Assembly: GCF_030816915.1 (NCBI RefSeq)
Contig: NZ_JAUSYN010000002.1
Location: 5,593,501 to 5,657,500, forward strand
Reading direction: 5' to 3'
From: Streptomyces sp. B3I8
Lineage (GTDB): Bacteria; Actinomycetota; Actinomycetes; Streptomycetales; Streptomycetaceae
Length of the DNA stretch: 64,000 nucleotides
This document shows positions 6,552-19,030 of this stretch, piece after piece. The notes under the pieces are model-generated. The model was not told the DNA's origin, did no database searches, and saw only the letters and a list, made by a program, of their open reading frames with translations. The translations under genes were made by a program, and so were the position numbers. How positions within the stretch are numbered: the stretch's first letter is position 1; each line of letters opens with the position of its first letter.

Positions 6552-7676
6552 TTGATACGCATAGATTCAGTCACGAAGCGATACCCGGACGGCACAGTGG
6601 CGGTCGACCGCCTGTCGCTGGAGATTCCGGACCGCTCCATCACGGTGCTCGTCGGACCGTCCGGCTGCGGCAAGACGACGACCCTGCGGATGATCAACCG
6701 GATGATCGAGCCCAGCGAGGGCACCATCCTGATCGACGGCGTCGACATCCAGAAGCAGCCGGTCAACACGCTGCGCCGGGGCATGGGCTACGTCATCCAG
6801 AACGCGGGCCTCTTCCAGCACCGCACGATCGTCGACAACATCGCGACCGTGCCCCGGCTGCTGGGCTGGAGCAAGGACCGGGCGCGCGGCCGGGCCCGGG
6901 AACTGATGACGCGGGTCGGACTGGACGCCTCGCTCGCGAGCCGTTACCCGTACCAGCTCTCCGGCGGCCAGCAGCAGCGCGTCGGTGTCGCCCGCGCGCT
7001 CGCCGCGGACCCGCCCGTGCTGCTGATGGACGAGCCGTTCTCCGCCGTCGACCCGATCGTGCGCAAGGGCCTCCAGGAGGAACTGCTGCGCATCCAGGAG
7101 GAGCTGGGCAAGACCATCGTCTTCGTCACGCACGACATCGACGAGGCGATCCGGCTCGGCACCATGGTCGCCGTGATGCGCACCGGCGGCCACCTCGCGC
7201 AGTTCGCGCCGCCCGCCGAACTGCTCTCCTCGCCCGCCGACGCCTTCGTCGAGGACTTCCTCGGCGCCGACCGCGGCATCCGCCGGCTGTCCTTCTTCAC
7301 CACCGCCGGTCTGGAACTGACCACCACCCCCGTCGTCGCCGTCGACACCACCGCCGAGCAACTGGCCGCGCGCGAGGCGGAGAACACCGCCCCGTACCTC
7401 CTCGTCACCGACCTCGACGGCAAACCGCTCGGCTGGTGCGCCCCGGAGGAATTCCCCGGCGCCGAGCCCGGCCAACTGCTGTCCTACGGCAGGCCGTTCG
7501 AGTCCGGCAAGGACTCGCTGCGGGCCGCCCTGGACTGCGCGGTGCTCTCGCCCACCGGCTGGGCGGTCGCCGTCGACGCAGAGGGCCGGGCCGTCGGCGT
7601 CGCCTCCCAGGAGACCATCGGCGAGGCCATCCGCGCCGCGCACGCCGAGCGCCGGAAGGCGGACGTCGCCGGATGA
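6552..7676 (+). CDS. Quaternary-amine (OpuC/ProV-type) ABC transporter ATPase
   Basis: A 374-residue ATPase that should energise uptake of glycine betaine, choline, carnitine or a related quaternary amine. The Walker A motif is GPSGCGKTTTL, the Q-loop region is YVIQNAGLFQHRTI, the signature is LSGGQQQRVGVARAL, and Walker B is VLLMDEPFSAVDP, followed by the switch His in FVTHDIDEAI. The last ~120 residues (from about 255) form the C-terminal regulatory extension with two CBS-like repeats (PYLLVTDLDGKPLGW and GWAVAVDAEGRAVGVAS), typical of osmoprotectant ATPases. The start is TTG at 6552 after GAAGGG. The stop overlaps the next start (ATGA). Confidence 0.93.
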   Translation: MIRIDSVTKRYPDGTVAVDRLSLEIPDRSITVLVGPSGCGKTTTLRMINRMIEPSEGTILIDGVDIQKQPVNTLRRGMGYVIQNAGLFQHRTIVDNIATVPRLLGWSKDRARGRARELMTRVGLDASLASRYPYQLSGGQQQRVGVARALAADPPVLLMDEPFSAVDPIVRKGLQEELLRIQEELGKTIVFVTHDIDEAIRLGTMVAVMRTGGHLAQFAPPAELLSSPADAFVEDFLGADRGIRRLSFFTTAGLELTTTPVVAVDTTAEQLAAREAENTAPYLLVTDLDGKPLGWCAPEEFPGAEPGQLLSYGRPFESGKDSLRAALDCAVLSPTGWAVAVDAEGRAVGVASQETIGEAIRAAHAERRKADVAG

Positions 7677-8449
7677 ACGGCTTCTTCGACATTCCGAGCG
7701 ACCTCCAGCACAGCTGGCTCGGCCTGATCGGGCTGCACCTGCGCGAGGCGCTGATCCCGGTCCTGGCCGGGCTCGTCCTGGCGCTGCCCATCGGGCAGCT
7801 GTGCGTCCGGCTGCGCTGGCTGTACCCGCCGGTGCTGTGGGTGACGACCGTGCTGTACGCCGTCCCGTCGCTGGCGTTCTTCGTCGTCCTGATCGACTAC
7901 ACCGGCCAGAGCGAGACGACGGTGATGATCCCGCTCGCCGTGTACAGCCTGGTGGTGCTGGTCCCCGCCATCGTCGACGGCGTCCGCTCGGTCCCGCAGG
8001 AGACCCTCGCCGCCGCCACCGCCATGGGCTTCGGACCCGTACGCCGCTACCTCCAGGTGCAGTTGCCGATCGCCGTACCCGCCCTCATCGCGGGGCTGCG
8101 GATCGCCACGGTCTCCAGCATCTCCCTGGTCAGCGTCGGCACCCTCATCGGCAACCAGGGCGCGCTCGGCAACCTGCTCGCCGACGCGATGTTCTACCAC
8201 CGCACCGCGCTCGCGGTGAACTCCGTGGTCACCACGGCCGTCCTCGCCATCGTCATCGACGCCCTGCTGGTGCTGCTGCGCAAGGTGCTCACCCCCTGGG
8301 CACCGCCCTCCTCCGGCGGTACCCGGACGGCCCGGCGCGGCGGCCGCCGACGGCTGCCCGGCCGGCCCGCGCAGGAGCAGACCGTACGGCCCGAACCGGC
8401 CGCGCCCGCCGTGCAGGGCGCCGCACCCGTGAAGGACACCGCCCGATGA
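7673..8449 (+). CDS. Quaternary-amine ABC transporter permease (first)
   Basis: A 258-residue inner-membrane permease of the BPD transport family with about five or six hydrophobic helices (for example LIPVLAGLVLALPIGQLCVR and ALAVNSVVTTAVLAIVIDAL). The EAA cytoplasmic loop is seen as LAAATAMGFGPVRRYLQVQLP. The ATG at 7673 overlaps the stop of the ATPase gene, and its own stop overlaps the start of the next permease. It pairs with that second permease as the OpuCB/OpuCD-like pore. The C-terminal ~45 residues are Arg/Pro/Ala-rich and probably cytoplasmic. Confidence 0.92.
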   Translation: MNGFFDIPSDLQHSWLGLIGLHLREALIPVLAGLVLALPIGQLCVRLRWLYPPVLWVTTVLYAVPSLAFFVVLIDYTGQSETTVMIPLAVYSLVVLVPAIVDGVRSVPQETLAAATAMGFGPVRRYLQVQLPIAVPALIAGLRIATVSSISLVSVGTLIGNQGALGNLLADAMFYHRTALAVNSVVTTAVLAIVIDALLVLLRKVLTPWAPPSSGGTRTARRGGRRRLPGRPAQEQTVRPEPAAPAVQGAAPVKDTAR

Positions 8450-9111
8450 ACGTCCTGAACTTCATCAACGACTTCTTCAGCGACAGCGCCCACTGGCACG
8501 GCTACGACGGCATCCCGCACCGCCTCCTCGAACACGTCCAGTACTCGTTGATCGCGCTGGCCATCGCCGCCGCGATCGGCCTGCCGGTCGGCCTGATCAC
8601 CGGCCACACCGGGCGCGGCGGCACCGCGCTCGCCCTCATCGCCACCGCGGCCCGGGCACTGCCCAGCTTCGGCCTGCTGGTGCTGATGTTCGTCCTGCTC
8701 GGCCTCGGACTGCTGCCGGTGATGATCCCGCTGGTGGTGCTCGCCGTGCCGCCCATCCTCGTCACCACCTACGAGGCGGTCCGCACGGTCGAGCCCGCCC
8801 CCGTCGACGCGGCCCGGGGCATGGGCATGACCGAGCCGCGCATCCTGTTCCAGGTCGAACTGCCGGTCGCGCTCCCGCTGATTTTCAGTGGCCTGCGCTC
8901 GGCCGCCATCCAGATCGTCTCCACGGCCACGATCGCCGCGTACGTCAGCCTCGGCGGACTCGGCCGGTACATCGTCGACGGGCTCTACCAGCGCAACTAC
9001 GAGAAGGTCGTGGGCGGCGCGACCCTGGTGGCGGTACTGGCCCTGGTCACCCTCGGACTGTTCTGGGCGGCGGCGAGGGCGGCGGTCTCACCGGGGGTGC
9101 GCCGCAGCTGA
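8446..9111 (+). CDS. Quaternary-amine ABC transporter permease (second)
   Basis: A 221-residue BPD-type permease. It has hydrophobic segments such as YSLIALAIAAAIGLPVGLI and GLLVLMFVLLGLGLLPVMIP, and the EAA loop DAARGMGMTEPRILFQVELP that docks on the ATPase. The ATG at 8446 overlaps the preceding stop (ATGA), so three genes form a tight operon. The binding protein expected in this system is absent here; a candidate lies at 16303-17259. A short palindrome (CTGAGG-AGG-CCTCAG, 9109-9123) overlaps the stop and may end the transcript. Confidence 0.93.
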   Translation: MNVLNFINDFFSDSAHWHGYDGIPHRLLEHVQYSLIALAIAAAIGLPVGLITGHTGRGGTALALIATAARALPSFGLLVLMFVLLGLGLLPVMIPLVVLAVPPILVTTYEAVRTVEPAPVDAARGMGMTEPRILFQVELPVALPLIFSGLRSAAIQIVSTATIAAYVSLGGLGRYIVDGLYQRNYEKVVGGATLVAVLALVTLGLFWAAARAAVSPGVRRS

Positions 9112-9142: not shown

Positions 9143-10090
9143 TCACAGGTGTTTCGCGTAGAAGGCCGCCAGCGTCTCCACCGCCCGGCCGACGTACTCG
9201 GGCCGGTCGTACAGGTCGTAGTGGCTCGCGCCCTCGACGACCAGAAGGTCCTTCGGGCCCCTCGCCCTCGCGAACAGTTCCCGCCCCTCCCGGCAGGAGC
9301 CGAAGGACCCGGTCCGGTCGCCGACCACGATCTGGAGGGGCTGGGTCAGCAACTCCTCCACCAGGTGGAAGGCGTCGAACGCGAGCATCGACGCGATACT
9401 CCGGTGCGCCAGCCGGTTGACCGACCGCTCGTGCCCGCCGCGCGGCGTGAGGTAGTAGTCGACCGCCTCGATCAGGTCGACGTCGGTGACCCCCGCCTCC
9501 GCCGGGTCCCCGAGATCCTCGGGGAGCCATGTCGTGAGCGACGGGGCCCCGCCGCGGGCCTCGGCCGTGCGCCGGTTCCCCACCTTTGCCAGCCGCTCGG
9601 CGACAGAACCGCCGGCCCGGCGGGCCCGGCCGATGTTCACGGGCACGACCGTGCCCACCGCCCTGAGGCGCCGCTCGGTCAGGGCGGCGTTGACCGCGTA
9701 ACCGCCGCCCGCGCACACGCCGAGCACGCCGATGCGCTCCTCGTCCACGAAGGGCAGGGTGGTCAGGAAGTCGACGGCGGACCTGATGTCCTCCACGCGG
9801 GTGGCCGGCTCCTCCAGGTGCCTGGGCTCGCCGCCGCTCGCGCCCTGGTGGGAGGCATCGAACGCGAGCGTGACGTACCCCCGCGCCGCCAGGTGCCGGG
9901 CGTAGACCCCGGCCGTCTGCTCCTTCACTCCGTTGCCCGGGTGGACGCAGACGAGCGCCGGGTGCCGCCGTCCCTCCGCGGTGTCGAAGCCCGGCGGCAC
10001 ACGGAGGTGCGCGGCGAGGGCGACGCCACGGCTGTCGAAGGTCACGGGGGCCGGAACGGGGCCAGTGGTGTCTGTGCGAACGGTGTCCAT
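9143..10090 (-). CDS. Alpha/beta hydrolase (dienelactone hydrolase-like)
   Basis: A 315-residue cytoplasmic alpha/beta hydrolase. Motifs include VCVHPGNGVKEQ (oxyanion region), GYVTLAFDASHQGASGGEP and the nucleophile elbow GVLGVCAGGGYAV, in which Cys occupies the nucleophile position as in dienelactone hydrolases and the YcjY group. A candidate acid lies in LQIVVGDRTGS and the His in EGASHYDLYDRPEY near the C-terminus. The substrate is not predictable. The ATG at 10090 is 74 bp from the divergently transcribed AraC regulator, which suggests that regulator may control it. Convergent with the ABC operon. Confidence 0.9.
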   Translation of the reverse strand: MDTVRTDTTGPVPAPVTFDSRGVALAAHLRVPPGFDTAEGRRHPALVCVHPGNGVKEQTAGVYARHLAARGYVTLAFDASHQGASGGEPRHLEEPATRVEDIRSAVDFLTTLPFVDEERIGVLGVCAGGGYAVNAALTERRLRAVGTVVPVNIGRARRAGGSVAERLAKVGNRRTAEARGGAPSLTTWLPEDLGDPAEAGVTDVDLIEAVDYYLTPRGGHERSVNRLAHRSIASMLAFDAFHLVEELLTQPLQIVVGDRTGSFGSCREGRELFARARGPKDLLVVEGASHYDLYDRPEYVGRAVETLAAFYAKHL

Positions 10091-10164
10091 ACGAGGAAGT
10101 CTGCCGACCGTACAGTGGACTGTGAATGCTCCACGGTCCCCCGTACTTGATCCGGAGTCCGCCC

Positions 10165-11148
10165 ATGGCCGCCGCTGACCCGCTCTCGGACGTGCTCGCT
10201 CTGGTGCGCGCGCGGTGTGAGATCACCGGCGGTCTGCGGGCCGGCGGCCGGTGGTCCCTGCGCTCCGGGCCGCACGCGGCGCAGGTCAAACTGGACGCCG
10301 TCACACACGGCTCCTGCCTGCTCCTCGCCGGCGGCCGGCCCCCGCTGCGACTGACCGCGGGTGACGTCGTCGTCCTGAACGGCGCCGGCTCCGTGGTGCT
10401 CTGCGGCGAACCGGGGGAGACCCCGGACGGGGGACCGGGGGAGACCACGGACGGCGGACCGGGGCAGACCACGGTGGAAGAGCCGGACCTCCCCCCGTCC
10501 GCGCCCGGCACGCTCCACCGGCTCGGCAGCGGTGAGGACGTGACGATCGTCGGCGGGCACGTGGAGCTCGATCCGGCCGCCGCCGAGTGGTTCACCGCGG
10601 CGCTGCCCGACGTCCTGCACGCCCACGCCGGCGCGCACGGCGTCGAGGCGGCGCGGATGCGGAGCCTGCTGGAGCAGATCGTCGAGGAGACGGCACAGGA
10701 CCGCCCGGGCGCCGCGTTCGCCCGCCACCAGCACGCTCAGCTCCTGCTGCTGCACGCCCTGCGCGTCGGACTGCGCGGCGGGGCGGGGGTGTTGCGCCCC
10801 GGCTGGCTGCGCCTGCTCGCGGACGCACGGCTGCGGCTCGCCGTGGAGGCCGTGCACGCCGATCCCGGACACCCCTGGGAGCTGCGGGAGCTGGCCTCGG
10901 TGGCGGGCATGTCGCGCAGTCACTTCGCCGGGCGGTTCCGCGAGGTGGCGGGCGAGACACCGCTGGCGTACGTGTCCCACTGGCGGCTACGGCTTGCGCG
11001 GCAGGCGCTGCGGGACTCCGACACGACGGTCGCCGCGCTCGGCGAACGCCTCGGGTACGCCTCGGAGAGCTCCTTCAGCCACGCGTTCAGCCGTGTCGTC
11101 GGGATGTCTCCGGGGCGGTACCGCCGGACCGCCGCGCGGGGGAGCTGA
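10165..11148 (+). CDS. AraC-family regulator with cupin-type sensor domain
   Basis: A 327-residue transcription factor. The N-terminal ~200 residues resemble the AraC-associated cupin domain (LADVLALVRARCEITGGL-like start, GRWSLRSGPHAAQVKLD, LTAGDVVVLNGAG). The C-terminal ~100 residues are the double helix-turn-helix: HPWELRELASVAGMSRSHFA and ALGERLGYASESSFSHAFSR, ending GMSPGRYRR. I chose ATG 10165 because GGAG lies 7 bp upstream; an in-frame ATG at 10126 has no site. A Pro/Gly/Asp-rich insert near residues 85-115 contains short repeats of a PGETxDGGP-type motif. It probably acts on the divergent hydrolase gene. Confidence 0.9.
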   Translation: MAAADPLSDVLALVRARCEITGGLRAGGRWSLRSGPHAAQVKLDAVTHGSCLLLAGGRPPLRLTAGDVVVLNGAGSVVLCGEPGETPDGGPGETTDGGPGQTTVEEPDLPPSAPGTLHRLGSGEDVTIVGGHVELDPAAAEWFTAALPDVLHAHAGAHGVEAARMRSLLEQIVEETAQDRPGAAFARHQHAQLLLLHALRVGLRGGAGVLRPGWLRLLADARLRLAVEAVHADPGHPWELRELASVAGMSRSHFAGRFREVAGETPLAYVSHWRLRLARQALRDSDTTVAALGERLGYASESSFSHAFSRVVGMSPGRYRRTAARGS

Positions 11149-11192: not shown

Positions 11193-11828
11193 TCACCCCT
11201 GCGTGCGTGCCAGCGCCAGCTCCAGCACCGTCAGCAGCGCGTCGCGCACCGAGCCGCGCTCGCGCGCGTCGAACACCACGACCGGCACCTGGTCGGCCAT
11301 GTCCAGCGCCCACCGCACCTCGTCCAGTGAATGCTCCACGATCCCGTCGAACGCGTTCAACGCGACCGCGAACGGGATGCCCCGGTGCTCGAAGTAGTCG
11401 ACGGCCGCGTAGCAGTCGTCGAGCCGCCGGCTGTCGACGATGACCAGACCGCCGACCGCGCCCTCCACGAGGTCGTCCCACATGAACCCGAACCGGTCCT
11501 GGCCGGGCGTGCCGAACAGGTACAGCTTCAGGGTCGGGTCGATGGTGATGCAGCCGAAGTCCATCGCGACCGTGGTGGTGGTCTTGGCCGGGGTGTGACT
11601 GAGGTCGTCCACCCCCGCCGCGACCTCGGTGATGGCCGCTTCGGTGGTGAGCGGCTCGATCTCCGAGATGGAGCCGACGGCGGTGGTCTTGCCCACGCCG
11701 AAGCCGCCCGCGATCACCAGTTTGACCGGCAGCGGCGGCCGTTCGGCGGTCACCGCGCCGCCGTGGGCGGCCGGTTCAGTCGGAGTCACGGAGTACCCCC
11801 CGGGAGTCGGGGATGGCACGGAGGCCAT
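11193..11828 (-). CDS. cvnD: Conservon Ras-like GTPase CvnD
   Basis: A 211-residue (from ATG 11828) or 198-residue (from GTG 11789) small GTPase. The P-loop is IAGGFGVGKTTAVGSISEIE, the switch-II region is FGTPGQDRFGFMWDDLVEGA, and the specificity motif is the unusual LNAFDG instead of NKxD, as in other conservon GTPases. Fourth gene of a cvnABCD unit. Conservon proteins form a membrane-associated complex likened to G-protein-coupled signalling in Streptomyces. The ATG start overlaps cvnC by 53 bp and has GAAGGG 7 bp upstream; the GTG start would give a more usual short overlap. Confidence 0.93.
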   Translation of the reverse strand: MASVPSPTPGGYSVTPTEPAAHGGAVTAERPPLPVKLVIAGGFGVGKTTAVGSISEIEPLTTEAAITEVAAGVDDLSHTPAKTTTTVAMDFGCITIDPTLKLYLFGTPGQDRFGFMWDDLVEGAVGGLVIVDSRRLDDCYAAVDYFEHRGIPFAVALNAFDGIVEHSLDEVRWALDMADQVPVVVFDARERGSVRDALLTVLELALARTQG

Positions 11829-12216
11829 CGATAACCCTTCGCAGTACGGAAGCGTCGCGGATGATGTCGGTGCGTGGTACGTGCACCGACAGTTGTCCGT
11901 CGGCGCGCAGGTCCTCGGCCAGGACGCGGACCACGTTCAGATGCAGCCGCAGCCGGGCCGCGATCTCCGCGAGGGACTGCGGCCGCCGGCAGGCGGCGAC
12001 GATGTCGTGCTGCTCGAACGACAGGCGTTCGAGCGCGTCGATCCCCGCGGTGGTGGCCACCATCTGGGTCTCGACGGGGATCGGCCGGCCGGACGCGGTG
12101 CCCGCCACCCGGCCCGCGGTGACCAGGAACGGCCGGACCGCGGGGGCCGGGCCGACGGGGGTTCCGTCGGGGCCGGTGAAGCCGTGCGCGCCCGGGGGTG
12201 CTTGGCCGTCCGCCAT
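11776..12216 (-). CDS. cvnC: Conservon DUF742 protein CvnC
   Basis: A 146-residue protein with DUF742 features: PFLVTAGRVAGTASGRPIPVETQMVAT (here split as VRPFLVTAGR and IPVETQMVA), RLSFEQHDIVAACR, SLAEIAARLRLHLNVVRVLAEDL, then QLSVHVP. The centre resembles a winged-helix fold, and such proteins are third members of conservons. The N-terminal 35 residues are Pro/Gly-rich. A gap of 37 bp separates it from cvnB upstream, and it overlaps cvnD downstream. Confidence 0.93.
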   Translation of the reverse strand: MADGQAPPGAHGFTGPDGTPVGPAPAVRPFLVTAGRVAGTASGRPIPVETQMVATTAGIDALERLSFEQHDIVAACRRPQSLAEIAARLRLHLNVVRVLAEDLRADGQLSVHVPRTDIIRDASVLRRVIDGLRAIPDSRGVLRDSD

Positions 12217-12253: not shown

Positions 12254-12730
12254 TCATCCAGCCGACGCGGCGCCGACGCTGTTCTTCAGTTCCAGTACGA
12301 GCTGAGGGCTCAGCGCGGTGCCGGCGCGGTTGGCGAACAGGGTCATCTCGTAGGCGATGTTGCCGAGCTTGGCCTCCTTGTCGGTGACCACGCCGAGGAC
12401 GGCGCCGCTGCCGATCGCGGAGACCAGGACGTGGCCACCCTCCAGGTCGATGATGACCTTGTTGAGCCCGCCCAGACCGTAGTTGCCGGAAGCGCCGGAC
12501 GCCAGGCTCGTGATGCCGGAGACGATCGCCGCGAGCCGTTCCGAGTCGGCGTGCTCGCGCAGTTCGGAGACGGCGATGAGCAGACCGTCGGACGACACGG
12601 CGATGGCGTCGACGACGCCGGCGGTCTCGGTGGCGAAACGATTCAGGAGCCAGGTGAAGTCGGCCGCGGCAGCCCGCAGGTCCGTCGGCGAGGCCCCGCC
12701 CATGGAGGTGTCACCTGTCGACGTTGTCAC
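12254..12730 (-). CDS. cvnB: Conservon roadblock/LC7 protein CvnB
   Basis: A 158-residue protein of the roadblock/LC7 family, which often acts with small Ras-like GTPases as in MglA/MglB. Key stretches are FTWLLNRFATETAGVVDAIA, VSSDGLLIAVSELREHADSE, GLGGLNKVIIDLEGGHVLVS and GAVLGVVTDKEAKLGNIAYE. The GTG start at 12730 overlaps the cvnA stop (GTGA), so it is translationally coupled to the kinase-like gene. Confidence 0.94.
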   Translation of the reverse strand: MTTSTGDTSMGGASPTDLRAAAADFTWLLNRFATETAGVVDAIAVSSDGLLIAVSELREHADSERLAAIVSGITSLASGASGNYGLGGLNKVIIDLEGGHVLVSAIGSGAVLGVVTDKEAKLGNIAYEMTLFANRAGTALSPQLVLELKNSVGAASAG

Positions 12731-15700
12731 TGCTCCGCTCCTTCCGGGAGGTGGTTCTGGTCGTGCGTGGCGCGGGTGGTGGCTGAGGACGTGGGGGATA
12801 CCGGGGGAAGCGTACGTCGGCCGTCGGCGGCGTCGGCGCGCGCGTCCCGGTTTGCGCGCTCGACGGCCGCCTCGAACTCCTCGAGCGCGGAGCGGACGGC
12901 GTCGGCGTCGGCGGGCCGCAGTGGCTCGGCGGCCCGCTGCGCGGCCGTGTCCGCGAACGTGGTCCGCAGGGTCGCCCCCCGCACGCGCCGCCGCAACGGC
13001 CGGGCGCCGTCGCCCGGTTCCTCCGGGCCGGTCGCGGCCGCGCCGCCCCGGGGGGCGGGTGGTACGACGGCGCCGGACCGGCCGCCCGGCGAGGCACCGG
13101 TGGCGGCCTCGTCGTGGGTGCGCGGGATGTCGGCCTCGTGCGGCCGGGAGGTTCCGGCGCCCGCCCCGGCCCCCGCCTCGGGCTCGCGCCCGTAACCGAA
13201 CTCGTCGGCCACGTAGGGCCGGTCCCGCTCGGGATGCTCCCGCCCGGTCCGCGCGGAGGTATCGGATCGTTCGGCCGGGGTGGCGGCCGGGGGCGTCGGC
13301 GTCCCCGCGGAGGGGAGCGCTTCGTCCGCAGCCGGCCGGGAGGTGCCCGGCCGGACCGGGACGTACCCCGTGCCGCGGCCGCCGCCCTCGGACGCCCGCC
13401 CGGCGGACGTTCCTGCCCCGGGCGTCCGTCCTGCGGGGGCCGTCTCCGCCCGGTCCCCCGCGGGGACCGTCTCCTCCTGGTCCCCGCGGGGAACGCGGCG
13501 GGGGAGCGGGACGAGCGGGTCGCCGTCGGCCGATGCCGTCTCGCCCCCTGCCCGCCCGGCCTCCGCCGCGCGGCGGGCGGCCCAGGCCGGGGTGCGGCCG
13601 GTGCCGCGTCCGGCTTCCGCCGGCGCCGGGGCGGAGGCCGGCTCCGGATGCGCGGTGCTGTCCGGCTCCGCGTCGGCCGCGGGCCGTTCGTCGCGCCTGC
13701 CGTCCGTCGGAGAGGATCCCGTCGGCAGGGCCCTGCGGGGTTCCGAGGGGGTGACGGCGCCCGGCTCCACCGGGTCCGCGGCGCGGCCCTCCGGGCTCGC
13801 CGCCGGCGCCACCACGTCCCGTTCGATGTCCCGTTCGACGTTCCGTTCCACGGCGGCCGACGAGGACGGCCGCGACGGCTCGGCCGCGAGCGGGCTCAGC
13901 GCCAGCAGCAGCGTCGACGGCAGTGCGATGTGCGAGGTGACGCCGCCGCCCGGGGTCCGGGACAGCGTCACGGTCACACCCCAGCGGCGCGCCAGCGTGC
14001 CCACCACGAACAGGCCCAGCACCTTCGTCGGCACCAGGTCCAGCCGCTCGCGGCGCACCAGCCGCGCGTTCTCCTCGGCGAGCCGCTCCGCGCTCATGCC
14101 CAGGCCGTGGTCGGCGATCTCGATGTGCGCGACGCCGTCGCCGTCCGCCCGCACCGCCACCTCGACAGGGCTGCGCGCGGGCGAGAACGCCACCGCGTTC
14201 TCGATCAGTTCGGCCACCATCAGCGTCAGGTCGCCGATGATGTCCGGCTCGACCATGACCTCCGTGTCGGCGCGCAGCGACACCCGCTGGTAGCCCTCGA
14301 CCTGCCCGAGCGCGGCCCTTACGACGTTGGTGAGCGCGGTCGGTCCGGAGTCCAGCACGGTCTCGCGGATGCCGGCCAGCAGCATCAGGCTGTCGGCGTT
14401 GCGGCGCAGACGCACGGCGATGTGGTCGATGCGGTACAGCCGGTCCAGCAGCGCGGGGTCGGTCTCGCCGCGCTCGACCGCGTCGATCAGCGCGAGCTGA
14501 CGGGCGGTCAGGTTGCTGACCCGGCGTCCCACGTTGCCGAACATCTCGGCGACGTTGCGCCGGCTGAGCACCTGGCGTTCCAGCAGCGCCGCCGCCGTGC
14601 CCTGCACATGGTTGAACGCCTCGGCGAGCTCGCCGATCTCGTCGCGCACGACGACCGGCACCTCGCTCAGCCTCGGCGGCCCCGCGTCCTCCGCGTCGTC
14701 GTCGGCGACCCGGGCCAGTTCGCGCCCCGCCACCTCGGCGACCTGCTGCGCGGCTCCGGTCAGCGCCGTCACCGGCCGCACCACGGAACGTCGTACGGCG
14801 ACCGAGAAGCCGAGCCAGAGGACGAACCCGAGCAGTGCCGCGGCGAGCAGCCAGCCGGCCCGCCACCAGGAGTCGGAGGAGGCGCTGTCGGCCCGGTGGG
14901 CGATCTGGCCGGTCAGCGAGGTGGTGATCTTCAGCCGGGACTCGGCCTGGGCCCGGTAGTCCGGGTAGGTGGCCAGGGACGAGGTGAACGCCCGGCGCAG
15001 TTGGGTCGGCCCCTTGGCCTGCAACGCGCTCGGGTCGACCTGGAGTTCGGCGTACTGCTGGGCGATCGTGGCCATCGGGCCGTCGCGCTCCATGCTGCCC
15101 AGCTGGTCCGCCTGCTCCTCGGTGGCGAAGCGGCTGAAGCGGTCGGCCTGGTACGTGTAGAGCTGGTAGGCGCCGACCGCGCTGTTGAACTGGATCAGCG
15201 CGTTGCTGTCACCCGTGGTCGCGGAGAACACGTCGGTCTCGAACGCGCTGTGCGCGGCGTCGGCGCGCAGCAGCGACTCCAGCAGATTGCCGGTGAAGGT
15301 GGCCGCGAGCGCGGTGTTGCGGTCCAGGCCGAGCCCGTCGATCAGGCCCTTGGCCACGCTGGTGTACGTGGGGTCGATGTTGTCGGCGGGCAGATACCCC
15401 GCCTCGACGTTCTCCCGGAGGCTGGTGAGACCGTTGACCTCGCGCAGGGCCTGTGCCTCGGTGCCGGGGAGCCGGTCGCCGAAGGTGTCGCGCACCTTGT
15501 CCACCTGCGCGTCCACGGCCGCCTGCGCCTTGCGGTACCCCGTGGTGGACGGCCGGTCCGCCTTGCCGGCGGCCTCGTACCGCACGGAGAGCAGCATCGC
15601 CTGCTGGTACTCGTTCTGCACCTGGTCGACCAGGGCGGCCACCTGCACGCTGTTCCGCACCAGGTCGGCGGCGTCCGCCGCGTCGCGGGCCTGTCCCACC

Positions 15701-15870
15701 TGGTCGGCGATGAGGTACGACAGCAGCATCGCGACCACCGCGAGCGGGACGCCGACGAGGGCGTTGAGCTTGCGCCGGAAGGGCCACCGGTCGGCGAAGC
15801 GACGAATACCGCTCGGCGGCGACGGCGGTGCCGGCGCGGGGGTGGACGCGTCCACCACGTTCGTGGACAC
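12727..15870 (-). CDS. cvnA: Conservon sensor kinase-like membrane protein CvnA
   Basis: A 1047-residue protein. Order of parts: short Pro-rich N-terminus; membrane helix about residues 35-58 (ALVGVPLAVVAMLLSYLIA); extracytoplasmic region of about 280 residues of the nitrate/nitrite-sensing (NIT) type; second helix about 335-360 (LLAAALLGFVLWLGFSVAV); HAMP linker; dimerisation stretch with RIDHIAVRLRRNADSLMLLAG; and an ATPase domain with ELIENAVAFSP (N box), IADHGLGMSAERL (G1) and LGLFVVGTLARRWG plus TPGGGVTSHIALP (G2). The last ~390 residues are a disordered Pro/Ala/Glu/Arg tail. It is the first gene of the conservon. The stimulus is unknown. Confidence 0.95.
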   Translation of the reverse strand: MSTNVVDASTPAPAPPSPPSGIRRFADRWPFRRKLNALVGVPLAVVAMLLSYLIADQVGQARDAADAADLVRNSVQVAALVDQVQNEYQQAMLLSVRYEAAGKADRPSTTGYRKAQAAVDAQVDKVRDTFGDRLPGTEAQALREVNGLTSLRENVEAGYLPADNIDPTYTSVAKGLIDGLGLDRNTALAATFTGNLLESLLRADAAHSAFETDVFSATTGDSNALIQFNSAVGAYQLYTYQADRFSRFATEEQADQLGSMERDGPMATIAQQYAELQVDPSALQAKGPTQLRRAFTSSLATYPDYRAQAESRLKITTSLTGQIAHRADSASSDSWWRAGWLLAAALLGFVLWLGFSVAVRRSVVRPVTALTGAAQQVAEVAGRELARVADDDAEDAGPPRLSEVPVVVRDEIGELAEAFNHVQGTAAALLERQVLSRRNVAEMFGNVGRRVSNLTARQLALIDAVERGETDPALLDRLYRIDHIAVRLRRNADSLMLLAGIRETVLDSGPTALTNVVRAALGQVEGYQRVSLRADTEVMVEPDIIGDLTLMVAELIENAVAFSPARSPVEVAVRADGDGVAHIEIADHGLGMSAERLAEENARLVRRERLDLVPTKVLGLFVVGTLARRWGVTVTLSRTPGGGVTSHIALPSTLLLALSPLAAEPSRPSSSAAVERNVERDIERDVVAPAASPEGRAADPVEPGAVTPSEPRRALPTGSSPTDGRRDERPAADAEPDSTAHPEPASAPAPAEAGRGTGRTPAWAARRAAEAGRAGGETASADGDPLVPLPRRVPRGDQEETVPAGDRAETAPAGRTPGAGTSAGRASEGGGRGTGYVPVRPGTSRPAADEALPSAGTPTPPAATPAERSDTSARTGREHPERDRPYVADEFGYGREPEAGAGAGAGTSRPHEADIPRTHDEAATGASPGGRSGAVVPPAPRGGAAATGPEEPGDGARPLRRRVRGATLRTTFADTAAQRAAEPLRPADADAVRSALEEFEAAVERANRDARADAADGRRTLPPVSPTSSATTRATHDQNHLPEGAEQ

Positions 15871-16302: not shown

Positions 16303-17259
16303 GTGACTACCGCGAAGAGCAGCAGGTCCAGTAAGAGACGATCCGGAGCGGCGGCCGTAGCGCTCGCCGCCGCCACGGCCCTCCTGGCGGCGGGGTGCGG
16401 ATCGGACGACAAGAGCGACGATCCGCTCGCGGGCGAGAAGTCGGGCGGCGACACGGTCGTCGTCGGCTCCAACAACTTCGCCGAGAGCATCCTCCTCGCC
16501 GACATCTACGGCGAGGCGCTGAAGGCCAAGGGCGTCAAGGTCGACTACAAGCCCAACATCGGCAGCCGCGAGACCACCTACGGTCTGCTGAAGAACGGCT
16601 CCATCACCGTGCTGCCCGAGTACAACGGCGCGCTGCTGGCCTACCTCGACGCCAAGGCCACCCCGAAGACGGTCGCCGAGACCACCGCCGCGATCAACGC
16701 GAAGCTGGACAAGAAGCTGGAGCTCCTGGAGCCGGCCGCCGCGCAGGACAAGGACTCGGTCACGGTCAACGCGGACGCCGCGAAGAAGCACGGGCTGACC
16801 GACAAGTCCACCATCGCCGACCTCAAGGACATCGCGTCCGACCTGGTCATCGGCGGCTCCCCGGAGTTCCAGACCCGACAGCAGGGCCTCAAGGGCCTGA
16901 AGTCGGTGTACGGCGTGGAGTTCAAGTCCTTCAAGGCGCTCGACGCGGGCGGCCCGCTCACCCAGGCGGCGCTGAAGAAGAACACGGTCCAGGCGGCCGA
17001 CCTCTTCACCACCGACCCGACCATCACCAAGGAGAAGTTCGTCGTCCTCCAGGACCCGGAGAACCTCTTCGGGTTCGAGAACGTGCAGCCGCTCGTCTAC
17101 AAGGGCGGACTCTCCAAGGAGGCCGCGGCCGCGCTGAACGCGGTCTCGGCCAAGCTCGACACGGCCGCGCTGCTGGACCTGGACGCGAAGGTGCAGCTCG
17201 AGAACAAGGACCCGCTGGACGTGGCCAAGACCTGGCTGAAGTCCGCCGGCCTCGGCTGA
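16303..17259 (+). CDS. Orphan quaternary-amine ABC substrate-binding lipoprotein
   Basis: A 318-residue extracellular lipoprotein. Signal peptide with basic start (KSSRSSKRR), hydrophobic core and lipobox LLAAGCG. The mature part matches OpuAC/ProX-type binding proteins: VVVGSNNFAESILLADIYGE, PNIGSRETTYGLLKNGSI, VLPEYNGALLAYLD and NLFGFENVQPLVYKGGLS. Ligands of this family are glycine betaine, choline, carnitine, ergothioneine and similar. The start is GTG 16303, preceded by GGAACGGGAA. No permease or ATPase gene adjoins it; the matching OpuC-like set is at 6552-9111. The next gene, a lyase-like protein, begins 16 bp after its stop, so the two look co-transcribed. Confidence 0.9.
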   Translation: MTTAKSSRSSKRRSGAAAVALAAATALLAAGCGSDDKSDDPLAGEKSGGDTVVVGSNNFAESILLADIYGEALKAKGVKVDYKPNIGSRETTYGLLKNGSITVLPEYNGALLAYLDAKATPKTVAETTAAINAKLDKKLELLEPAAAQDKDSVTVNADAAKKHGLTDKSTIADLKDIASDLVIGGSPEFQTRQQGLKGLKSVYGVEFKSFKALDAGGPLTQAALKKNTVQAADLFTTDPTITKEKFVVLQDPENLFGFENVQPLVYKGGLSKEAAAALNAVSAKLDTAALLDLDAKVQLENKDPLDVAKTWLKSAGLG

Positions 17260-17275
17260 CGCGGGAGCACCGCGC

Positions 17276-19030
17276 GTGAGCACGACCGCCGACGAGCCGA
17301 CCCGGGCGCCCTCCGCCGAGGGTGCCCGGGGCCTGCCGGACGGGACGGGGGCGCACGCCCGCGTCGTCCTGGACGGTGCCGGGCTGGACGTCGGCGGCGT
17401 GGTCCGGCTCGCCGACCACGACGCCGTGCCGGACGTCCCCGCCGAGCCGCTCGCCCGGGTCCGGCACGCCTGGCAGGCGGCCGAGCGGCTCGCCGCGCGC
17501 GGCCGGCTCTACGGGCGCGGCACCGGGGTCGGCGCCCACCGGCAGATCGCCGTCGACGAGGCCGACCTGGCCGGCCACGGCCTGCGCCTGCTGCGCAGCC
17601 ACGCGGGCGGCGCGGGCGCGGTGCTGCCCGCCCGGCAGGCGCGCGCGATGCTCGCCGTCCGTGCCAACCAGCTCCTGGCCGGCGGCTCCGGCATCCACCC
17701 CGACTTCGTCGAGGCCCTCGCCGAGGCACTGCGCCTGGGCGTCCACCCGGCGATCACGGAGTACGGCTCGGTGGGCACGGGCGACCTCACGGCCCTGGCC
17801 CAGACCGGCCTCGCCCTCCTTGGCGAACACCCCTGGCTGGGCGCCCCGAGTGACGCGTCCGGACCGGGCGCCGGGCACCCGCGCGCCGGTTCCCCGCGCG
17901 GCGTCGGCCCGTACGAGGACGGCTCCCCGATACCCGTCCCGCGTCGACCGCGGTCCGGCACGGCCGCCTCCCGACCGCAGGCGGCCCCGCAGCCGCAGGC
18001 CATTGCGCAGCCGCAGTCCGGCACGACTGCGCCCCGACCGCAGCCCGCCCCGCGACCGCGTGCCGCCCCGGCGGCGGGTGCGGGTCTGCCCGCGCCCGTC
18101 ATGCTGCGGCCCGGGGACGCGCTCGCGCTGCTCAGCAGCAGCGCGCTCACCCTCGGCCAGGCAGCGCTCGCCTGCCACGACCTCACGGTGCTGCTGCGGG
18201 CCGCGCACGCCGTGGCCGCGCTGTCGCTCCTCGCCGTCTCCGGTTCGACCGAGGCGTACGCCGCGCCCGTGCACGCGGTACGTCCCTACCCGGGCCCCGC
18301 GCGCGCGGCCGCCGAGGTGCGGCGGCTGCTCGGCCTGCCCGACCGGCCCCCGCCCGGCGGCGGGCGGCGCGTCCAGGACCCCTACGGCTTCCGCGCCTTC
18401 CCGCAGGTGCACGGTGCCGCGCTCGACGCCGCCGAACGGCTGCGGCACGTCGTCGAGACCGAGATCAACTGCCCCACCGAGAACCCGCTCATCGTCCCCG
18501 ACGAGGACACCGCCTACCACCACGGCGGCTTCTACGCCGCACCTCTGGGCCTCGCCCTCGACGCAGCCGACCTCGCCCTGCTCGGCACCGCCCAGCTCTC
18601 CGCCGCGCGACTGGCCGGGCTCGGCCGCGCGGACCTCACCGGGCTGCCCGCCTTCCTCGCCGAGGGCCCCGCCGGGAGCTCCGGCACGATGATCATGGAG
18701 TACACCGCGCACTCCGCCCTCGCCGAACTGCGCGCGTCGGCGTCCCCCGCCTCGGCGGGCCACGCCGTGCTCTCCCACGGCCTGGAGGAGGCGGCCGGCT
18801 TCGCCTCCCAGGCGGCCCGCCAGGCCCTGCGCGCGGTGGACGCCTACCGTACGGTCCTGGCCTGCGAGCTCGTGGTGGCAGTACGGGCGCTGCGCCTGAG
18901 CGGCACCACGCCGGACATGCCGGCATTCACCGTGGCATCCGCCGTCCTCCCCCCACAAACGGAGGACCGCCCCCTGACCCCCGACATCTCCGAGGCAACA
19001 GACCTACTCCCGCACCTGGCCCACCTGTGA
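17276..19030 (+). CDS. HAL/PAL-superfamily protein with variant MIO triad
   Basis: A 584-residue member of the aromatic amino-acid ammonia-lyase superfamily. Conserved landmarks are YGRGTGVG (the catalytic-Tyr loop, about residue 79), QARAMLAVRANQLLAGGSG, VQDPYGFRAFPQVHGA, NCPTENPLI and HHGGFYAAPLGLALD. The MIO-forming Ala-Ser-Gly is replaced by Gly-Thr-Gly at about residues 167-169 (SVGTGDLTAL), so the normal cofactor may not form. An insertion of about 85 residues rich in Pro, Gln, Ala and Arg follows (about 190-275), and the GNF motif is GGF. It could act on a substrate with a good leaving group, be a divergent lyase, or be inactive. It is 16 bp downstream of an orphan quaternary-amine binding protein. 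Confidence 0.85.
   Translation: MSTTADEPTRAPSAEGARGLPDGTGAHARVVLDGAGLDVGGVVRLADHDAVPDVPAEPLARVRHAWQAAERLAARGRLYGRGTGVGAHRQIAVDEADLAGHGLRLLRSHAGGAGAVLPARQARAMLAVRANQLLAGGSGIHPDFVEALAEALRLGVHPAITEYGSVGTGDLTALAQTGLALLGEHPWLGAPSDASGPGAGHPRAGSPRGVGPYEDGSPIPVPRRPRSGTAASRPQAAPQPQAIAQPQSGTTAPRPQPAPRPRAAPAAGAGLPAPVMLRPGDALALLSSSALTLGQAALACHDLTVLLRAAHAVAALSLLAVSGSTEAYAAPVHAVRPYPGPARAAAEVRRLLGLPDRPPPGGGRRVQDPYGFRAFPQVHGAALDAAERLRHVVETEINCPTENPLIVPDEDTAYHHGGFYAAPLGLALDAADLALLGTAQLSAARLAGLGRADLTGLPAFLAEGPAGSSGTMIMEYTAHSALAELRASASPASAGHAVLSHGLEEAAGFASQAARQALRAVDAYRTVLACELVVAVRALRLSGTTPDMPAFTVASAVLPPQTEDRPLTPDISEATDLLPHLAHL

Follow-up and report, generated by a model that had tools for sequence, protein, structure and literature searches.

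A binding protein and an MIO-less lyase encoded by adjacent genes

The window, a 64,000-nucleotide stretch of the Streptomyces sp. B3I8 genome, contains on its forward strand a gene for a substrate-binding protein (SBP) directly followed by a gene for a lyase. The pair and its elements are as follows:

16303–17259, + strand: OpuC-type substrate-binding lipoprotein (SBP), 318 amino acids, PF04069, GTG start
17260–17275, + strand: 16-bp gap, read directly, with a GGGAG ribosome-binding-like stretch ahead of the GTG of the lyase
17276–19030, + strand: MIO-less lyase of the HAL/PAL/ergothionase fold, 584 amino acids, PF00221
17765–17788, + strand: shortened MIO loop GSVGTGDL, lyase residues 164–171, one residue deleted relative to GSVGASGDL of HAL
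17837–18085, + strand: hypervariable Pro/Ala/Gly-rich insert, lyase residues 188–270, from a length comparison of 10 relatives
18134–18145, + strand: SSSA motif, aligned with Asn195-Gly-Thr-Gln of HAL; SSNA-like in ergothionases

Both gene positions and the 16-bp spacing agree with the preliminary description of this DNA. Its assignment of the first product as an OpuAC-type lipoprotein is borne out by a profile match to the OpuAC domain (PF04069, 178.2 bits) and by the lipobox LLAAGC, read directly in the sequence, and that of the second to the ammonia-lyase superfamily by a match to Lyase_aromatic (PF00221, 362 bits). The lyase scores 285.5 bits against the NCBIfam HutH equivalog, far below the cut-off of 539.15. 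Throughout the 7.98 Mb genome, PF00221 yields four matches in three proteins, the window lyase being matched twice. The other two proteins are an ordinary HutH with a CSG (Cys-Ser-Gly) loop, encoded separately from the window lyase, and a lyase with an ASG loop. No hut genes lie directly beside the window lyase.

The insert of the lyase (residues 188–270) is of low complexity and has low confidence in the predicted model. Across ten orthologues its length varies freely from 6 to 285 amino acids, while the core retains 72–91% identity to the window lyase in nine of them and 64–70% in L018.

Shortened MIO loop

Relatives were compared in three sets: the best 120 of 3285 matches to the window lyase (Streptomyces search) and the best 120 of 4335 matches to a Nonomuraea member (Nonomuraea search), each including the query's own cluster, and the best 120 matches listed for the Treponema denticola ergothionase (ergothionase search). 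Aligned with HAL, the loop of the window lyase is one residue shorter (GSVG-TGDL versus GSVGASGDL). G-T-G-D together with the gap is found in 120/120 sequences of the Streptomyces search (best 120 of 3285) and 120/120 of the Nonomuraea search (best 120 of 4335). The T. denticola ergothionase also has a shortened loop (SSIGEGDI, followed by the motif SCNA, as read from its sequence), and the loop residue is deleted in all 120 ergothionase-search matches listed. The MIO triad had been described as Gly-Thr-Gly; the loop indeed reads G-T-G, but the 240 best-listed relatives indicate a one-residue deletion rather than a substituted triad. The proposed lack of a normal MIO holds at the sequence level, with the deletion in common with the T. 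denticola enzyme. Because the deletion is present in every window-family and ergothionase-search sequence listed, the alignments indicate that the normal triad is absent from the window lyase and that its loss is old and fixed.

Asn195 is required by HAL. The four positions corresponding to Asn195-Gly-Thr-Gln read SSSA in the window lyase, SSNA in 117 of the best 120 of 3285 Streptomyces-search matches, and SSGA in 115 of the best 120 of 4335 Nonomuraea-search matches; among the 120 ergothionase-search matches listed, they are Ser (112), Ser (104), Asn (120), and Ala (115). Asn195 itself is replaced by Ser in all of the best 120 of 3285 in the Streptomyces search. The combination of an Ala/Cys-Ser-Gly triad and Asn195 that defines HutH is absent from the window family in the alignments of both searches.

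Active site of the lyase

In HAL numbering, Tyr53, Ser82-His83, Gln277, Arg283, Phe329, Met382, and Glu414 are kept in all Streptomyces-search sequences (best 120 of 3285). His83, Met382, and Glu414 hold the imidazole in HAL. Tyr53, His83, Gln277, Arg283, and Glu414 occur jointly in 120/120 and 119/120 best-listed sequences of the Streptomyces and Nonomuraea searches, respectively, and Ser82-His83 and Glu414 are invariant across all 240. Among the best 120 of 4335 in the Nonomuraea search, position 382 carries Leu (72) or Met (48), and position 329 is Phe in 112. The place of HAL Gln385 is occupied by Glu in 240/240 best-listed sequences of both searches, and that of His330 by Phe or Tyr, with His-His at 325–326, in all of the best 120 of 3285 in the Streptomyces search.

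A different set of residues is conserved among the 120 ergothionase-search matches listed: Arg57 (118), Trp61 (120), Leu280 (118), Glu330 (118), and Lys386 (115), of which Arg57, Trp61, Glu330, and Lys386 would be substrate contacts. None of the five is found in the Streptomyces search (0/120, best 120 of 3285). These Streptomyces-search sequences have Thr at 57, Ala at 61, mostly Tyr or Phe at 280, Phe or Tyr at 330, and Tyr at 386, as well as Met382 where ergothionases have Gly. Tyr386 is also present in five of seven HAL sequences and is therefore no special mark of the family. The suggested active-site comparison with ergothionase thus gives a divided answer: the deletion and most of the SSNA motif are common to both, but Arg57, Trp61, Glu330, and Lys386 are missing. 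From these residues, we infer an imidazole-type substrate with a leaving group that does not depend on MIO, in which the sulfur of ergothioneine is more likely absent.

Phylogenetic position

A tree of 47 sequences separates, with support of 100/97, the window family and ergothionase-like sequences from HAL, aminomutase, and other MIO sequences, R. leguminosarum L039, and the Klebsiella/Rhizobium sequences. In a second tree, calculated on 42 of the 47 sequences after dropping five and removing the loop and Asn195 columns, the window family and the ergothionases lie on one side of a branch supported by 99/95; the window, ergothionase, and Klebsiella/Rhizobium types together are separated from the MIO enzymes, also with 99/95. 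Forced groupings of the Klebsiella type with the window family (p-AU 0.025) or with the ergothionases (p-AU 0.044) were worse. The trees are unrooted and the usual warning on long-branch attraction applies; because the root is not placed and long branches meet, they are support rather than proof for the grouping of the window family on the ergothionase side. With this caveat, the kinship with the ergothionase fold put forward earlier is supported also when the trait columns are removed, and the window enzyme is, judging from loop and tree, very probably an MIO-free lyase of the ergothionase side.

Ligand pocket of the binding protein

The ligand residues of EgtUC named in PMC9732360 include the aromatic F293, Y341, Y419, and Y443 as well as R379 and E375. 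These places were mapped by hand, via an iNicSnFR alignment, onto 11 SBP sequences (eight actinobacterial and three proteobacterial). Arg192 and Glu188 occupy the places of R379 and E375, and Asp151 that of Y341, in 11/11. At Y443, the actinobacterial sequences have Glu (6) or Ala (2) (Glu259 in the window SBP) and the three proteobacterial ones Gln; at Y419, all eight actinobacterial sequences have Phe (Phe235 in the window SBP) and the proteobacterial ones Leu or Thr. Of the four aromatic places, the window SBP therefore has an aromatic residue only at F293 (Tyr107) and Y419 (Phe235). By the same hand mapping, Lys242, Gly244, and the aromatic pentagon of EgtU are not found in the window SBP (Asn57, Phe59, Asp151, Glu259), nor is an equivalent of Thr296. 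According to this mapping, the pocket is not a classical quaternary-amine cage; the cage is only partly kept and the residue pattern is ambiguous. Asp151 would also suit a primary-amine ligand such as histidine.

A probable split transporter and a conservon

The region upstream of the SBP gene contains further genes for transport and regulation:

6552–7676, + strand: ABC ATPase, likely partner of the SBP (neighbourhood, profile matches)
7673–8449, + strand: ABC permease 1 (neighbourhood, profile matches)
8446–9111, + strand: ABC permease 2 (neighbourhood, profile matches)
11193–11828, − strand: conservon CvnD (PF03029 nucleotide-binding protein)
11776–12216, − strand: conservon CvnC (DUF742)
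12254–12730, − strand: conservon CvnB (Roadblock/LC7)
12727–15870, − strand: sensor kinase of the conservon (CvnA type), in divergent orientation to the SBP gene

The ATPase and the two permeases (6552–9111) are located 7 kb upstream of the SBP, beyond the divergent cvnA–D block, which we take to be a conservon. Profile search finds no OpuAC protein beside them. The genome has four OpuAC matches: the SBP, one other strong match in a 697-amino-acid frame adjoining a permease match, and two weak ones.

Gene order was compared in ten relatives retrieved with the lyase alone as query. The SBP directly precedes the lyase in 10/10 of these Streptomyces-type loci, with a spacing that is short in most, about 100 bp in L013 and about 300 bp in L018; since the lyase alone retrieved them, this pairing is not due to chance, and the adjacency whose conservation had been proposed as a check is indeed kept. 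The conservon lies divergently ahead of the SBP in all ten, and the ATPase and permeases lie ahead of the conservon in nine, other genes occupying that place in S. griseoaurantiacus (L010). The earlier view of the SBP as an orphan must accordingly be abandoned: it probably belongs to a transporter whose genes are split between two places. An OpuAC domain and a cognate-type ATPase and permeases, the gene content of an OpuC-type transporter, are present, and the SBP would pair with the distant permeases. The conservon may sense or control the transporter–lyase system. Between the transporter genes and the conservon, the window also carries a dienelactone-hydrolase-like gene and an AraC/cupin regulator (9143–11148), elsewhere found only in L009 and L010 among the ten relatives.

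MIO-less lyases in other neighbourhoods

Plasmid loci with related genes were found by tblastn with the lyase and the SBP. On a Klebsiella plasmid (L026, 4967–9837), an ATPase, two permeases, an SBP, and an MIO-less lyase form one operon, flanked by hutG-hutI-(broken permease)-hutU on one side and hutD-hutC-hutF on the other. The MIO-less lyase stands there in place of hutH; no second lyase was found in the Klebsiella stretches of 16.8 kb and 18 kb by annotation or by tblastn with five HALs. Of 895 matching records, 163 carry the Klebsiella lyase with at least 95% identity; the gene order was read in one. On plasmids of Agrobacterium and Rhizobium beringeri, ATPase, permease, permease, SBP, and MIO-less lyase genes are followed by those for a CoA transferase (presumably CaiB-type), a 3-hydroxyacyl-CoA dehydrogenase, and an enoyl-CoA hydratase, which suggests CoA-dependent use of an enoate. 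The Rhizobiaceae operons include a HutC-like regulator:

L019, 4426–12353: Rhizobiaceae operon with HutC-like regulator
L030, 5435–13424: Rhizobiaceae operon with HutC-like regulator

The Klebsiella/Rhizobium-type lyases have a three-residue loop deletion (GSVGY---LIAT) and belong to a different MIO-less branch from the window family. Hercynine fits best as the substrate of an MIO-free lyase that supplies urocanate hydratase and is encoded next to an importer of the betaine type; for the window this could apply by analogy.

Linkage between binding protein and lyase is thus seen in the Streptomyces-type loci and, for MIO-less lyases of another kind, in Rhizobiaceae and in Klebsiella, where it lies within an operon for urocanate degradation, but does not extend to Nonomuraea, where no OpuAC gene adjoins the lyase (L024) and the sole SBP match in the record by tblastn is about 245 kb away. 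The OpuC-type systems of Klebsiella L020 and Erwinia L021 adjoin an FMN monooxygenase rather than a lyase; this transporter type therefore serves several substrates.

Three further rhizobial loci were noted. In R. leguminosarum (L042, 8974–10467), the MIO triad is missing (SKGS---AGYLV) from a lyase annotated hutH; its gene neighbours are a HutC regulator and an ABC transporter of the amino-acid type, and hutF and hutI lie farther away. S. meliloti pSymA (L025, 7938–9578) encodes an ergothionase-like lyase, also annotated hutH. In Rhizobium sp. SL42 (L034, 6938–14951), the gene for a lyase with a one-residue loop deletion shares a cluster with genes for an amidohydrolase, a Zn-dependent hydrolase, a DUF917 protein, and urocanate hydratase; the cluster may encode a pathway through thiourocanate.

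Proposed function and alternatives

The reading that we favor, at a chance just short of even, is that the lyase eliminates trimethylamine from a histidine-type betaine without MIO. The OpuC-type importer (ATPase and permeases 6552–9111 with SBP 16303–17259) would take up this betaine, most likely hercynine; alternatively, it may be supplied by the cell's own EgtD. The lyase would then remove the beta proton and expel trimethylamine as ergothionase does, MIO being dispensable because a quaternary amine leaves readily by itself. HutU, encoded elsewhere in the genome, would then act on the resulting urocanate or closely related compound. EgtD (386.4 bits) and HutU (911.5 bits) both score over their cut-offs in this genome, so the host can probably make hercynine and use urocanate. 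The earlier statement that ergothionase has no MIO agrees with PMC13405746, in which the enzyme is described as lacking MIO and releasing trimethylamine.

The suggestion that the pair captures and cleaves a histidine betaine thus gains from the missing MIO, the ergothionase grouping, and the gene linkage, and loses with respect to the residues specific for ergothioneine. It is weakened by the SBP cage, which appears largely lost, with Asp151 in it. The Klebsiella/Rhizobium context is an analogy from another branch with a three-residue deletion, and the R. leguminosarum MIO-less lyase adjoins an amino-acid-type transporter. The unlinked Nonomuraea relative, the lack of an adjoining hut gene in the window, the absence of the ergothionase-conserved residues, and the long branches of the tree also count against it. 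That the substrate is a betaine we regard as about an even bet, with hercynine as the leading candidate, above ergothioneine.

An appreciable, if minor, possibility is that the same transporter serves an MIO-free lyase acting on some other compound from which a group is easily expelled, either a different betaine (aromatic or heterocyclic) or an amino-acid derivative that is not a betaine. The lyase pocket resembles neither ergothionase nor HAL (Glu at 385, Phe/Tyr at 330, His-His at 325–326), the SBP pocket is unlike known betaine binders, and the Rhizobiaceae operons carry CoA transferase, HADH, and ECH genes and not hutU, so that products may vary. Such a substrate is less easily reconciled with Ser82-His83 and Glu414, which form the imidazole side in HAL and are invariant in the 240 best-listed sequences, and with Met382, invariant in the Streptomyces search (in the Nonomuraea search, 72 of 120 sequences have Leu and 48 have Met). 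A degenerate histidine-use pair, with the SBP importing histidine or another amino acid and the lyase a former HAL that is inactive or poor on histidine, seems rather improbable. It would account for the replacement of the cage Tyr by Asp151 beside the kept Arg192 and Glu188, ProU-family histidine importers exist (HutXWV), and an ordinary HutH is already present; however, Tyr53, His83, Gln277, Arg283, and Glu414 stand together in 239 of the 240 best-listed sequences, which argues against decay, as does the high identity of the core despite the free variation of the insert.

A true ergothionase, converting ergothioneine to thiourocanate and trimethylamine, would share with the T. denticola enzyme the one-residue deletion, the SSNA motif, and the side of the tree, and S. 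coelicolor appears in a table of ergothioneine organisms (PMC7653990). We nevertheless consider it improbable, since the five ergothionase-conserved residues occur in 0/120 Streptomyces-search sequences, Met382 replaces Gly, and the SBP has Asn57 and Phe59 where EgtU-type proteins have Lys242 and Gly244; neither protein thus supports ergothioneine as the particular substrate. Cyclization of Gly-Thr-Gly to a methylated MIO-like group, making the enzyme an ordinary ammonia-lyase, is highly improbable: G-T-G and the following conserved Asp (HAL Asp145) are present, but one loop residue is missing, Ser takes the place of Asn195 in all 120 Streptomyces-search sequences listed, and the loop is shortened in the same way in ergothionase, which is reported to lack MIO.

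Trimethylamine is an exploration signal emitted by Streptomyces (PMC5207766). As described there, S. venezuelae has no cntA-like genes, and its cutCD homologues were higher in non-exploring cultures; according to PMC12211087, the genes for Streptomyces trimethylamine had been neither cloned nor mapped by 2025. If the favored reading, trimethylamine elimination from a betaine, were true, the window lyase would be a candidate source. It is a bold and improbable extension that window-type lyases are hercynine trimethylamine-lyases, a main source of the airborne exploration trimethylamine of Streptomyces and tied to the conservon sensor, and that, taken together with the Klebsiella and Rhizobium types, they represent a wide-ranging clan of MIO-free betaine lyases that has gone unrecognised.

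Comparison with known systems

Window-type genes are annotated as aromatic amino acid or histidine ammonia-lyases, although they lack the group of the ordinary mechanism; judged by the loop, this annotation is probably wrong for at least 240 protein clusters. Unlike HutH, the window lyase has neither the MIO triad nor Asn195, scores 285.5 against 539.15 bits, and lies here outside a hut operon. It is 26% identical to the T. denticola ergothionase (PDB 6s7j/6s7q), from which it differs by the loss of Arg57, Trp61, Leu280, Glu330, and Lys386, by keeping His83 and Glu414 of HAL, by its linkage to an OpuC transporter and a conservon, and by its hypervariable insert. The window SBP resembles the OpuC/ProX/EgtUC proteins in its OpuAC domain and in Arg and Glu at the places of EgtUC R379 and E375, but differs in the partly lost cage, Asp151 at Y341, and the missing equivalents of Lys242, Gly244, and Thr296. 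The closest parallel in arrangement is the Klebsiella/Rhizobiaceae plasmid system, whose lyase has either no annotation or just 'aromatic amino acid ammonia-lyase'. There too, a transporter and an OpuAC-type SBP, 43% identical to that of the window, occur directly with an MIO-less lyase, whereas the loop deletion is a different one of three residues, the operon is contiguous, and the partners are of the hut or CoA-transferase type.
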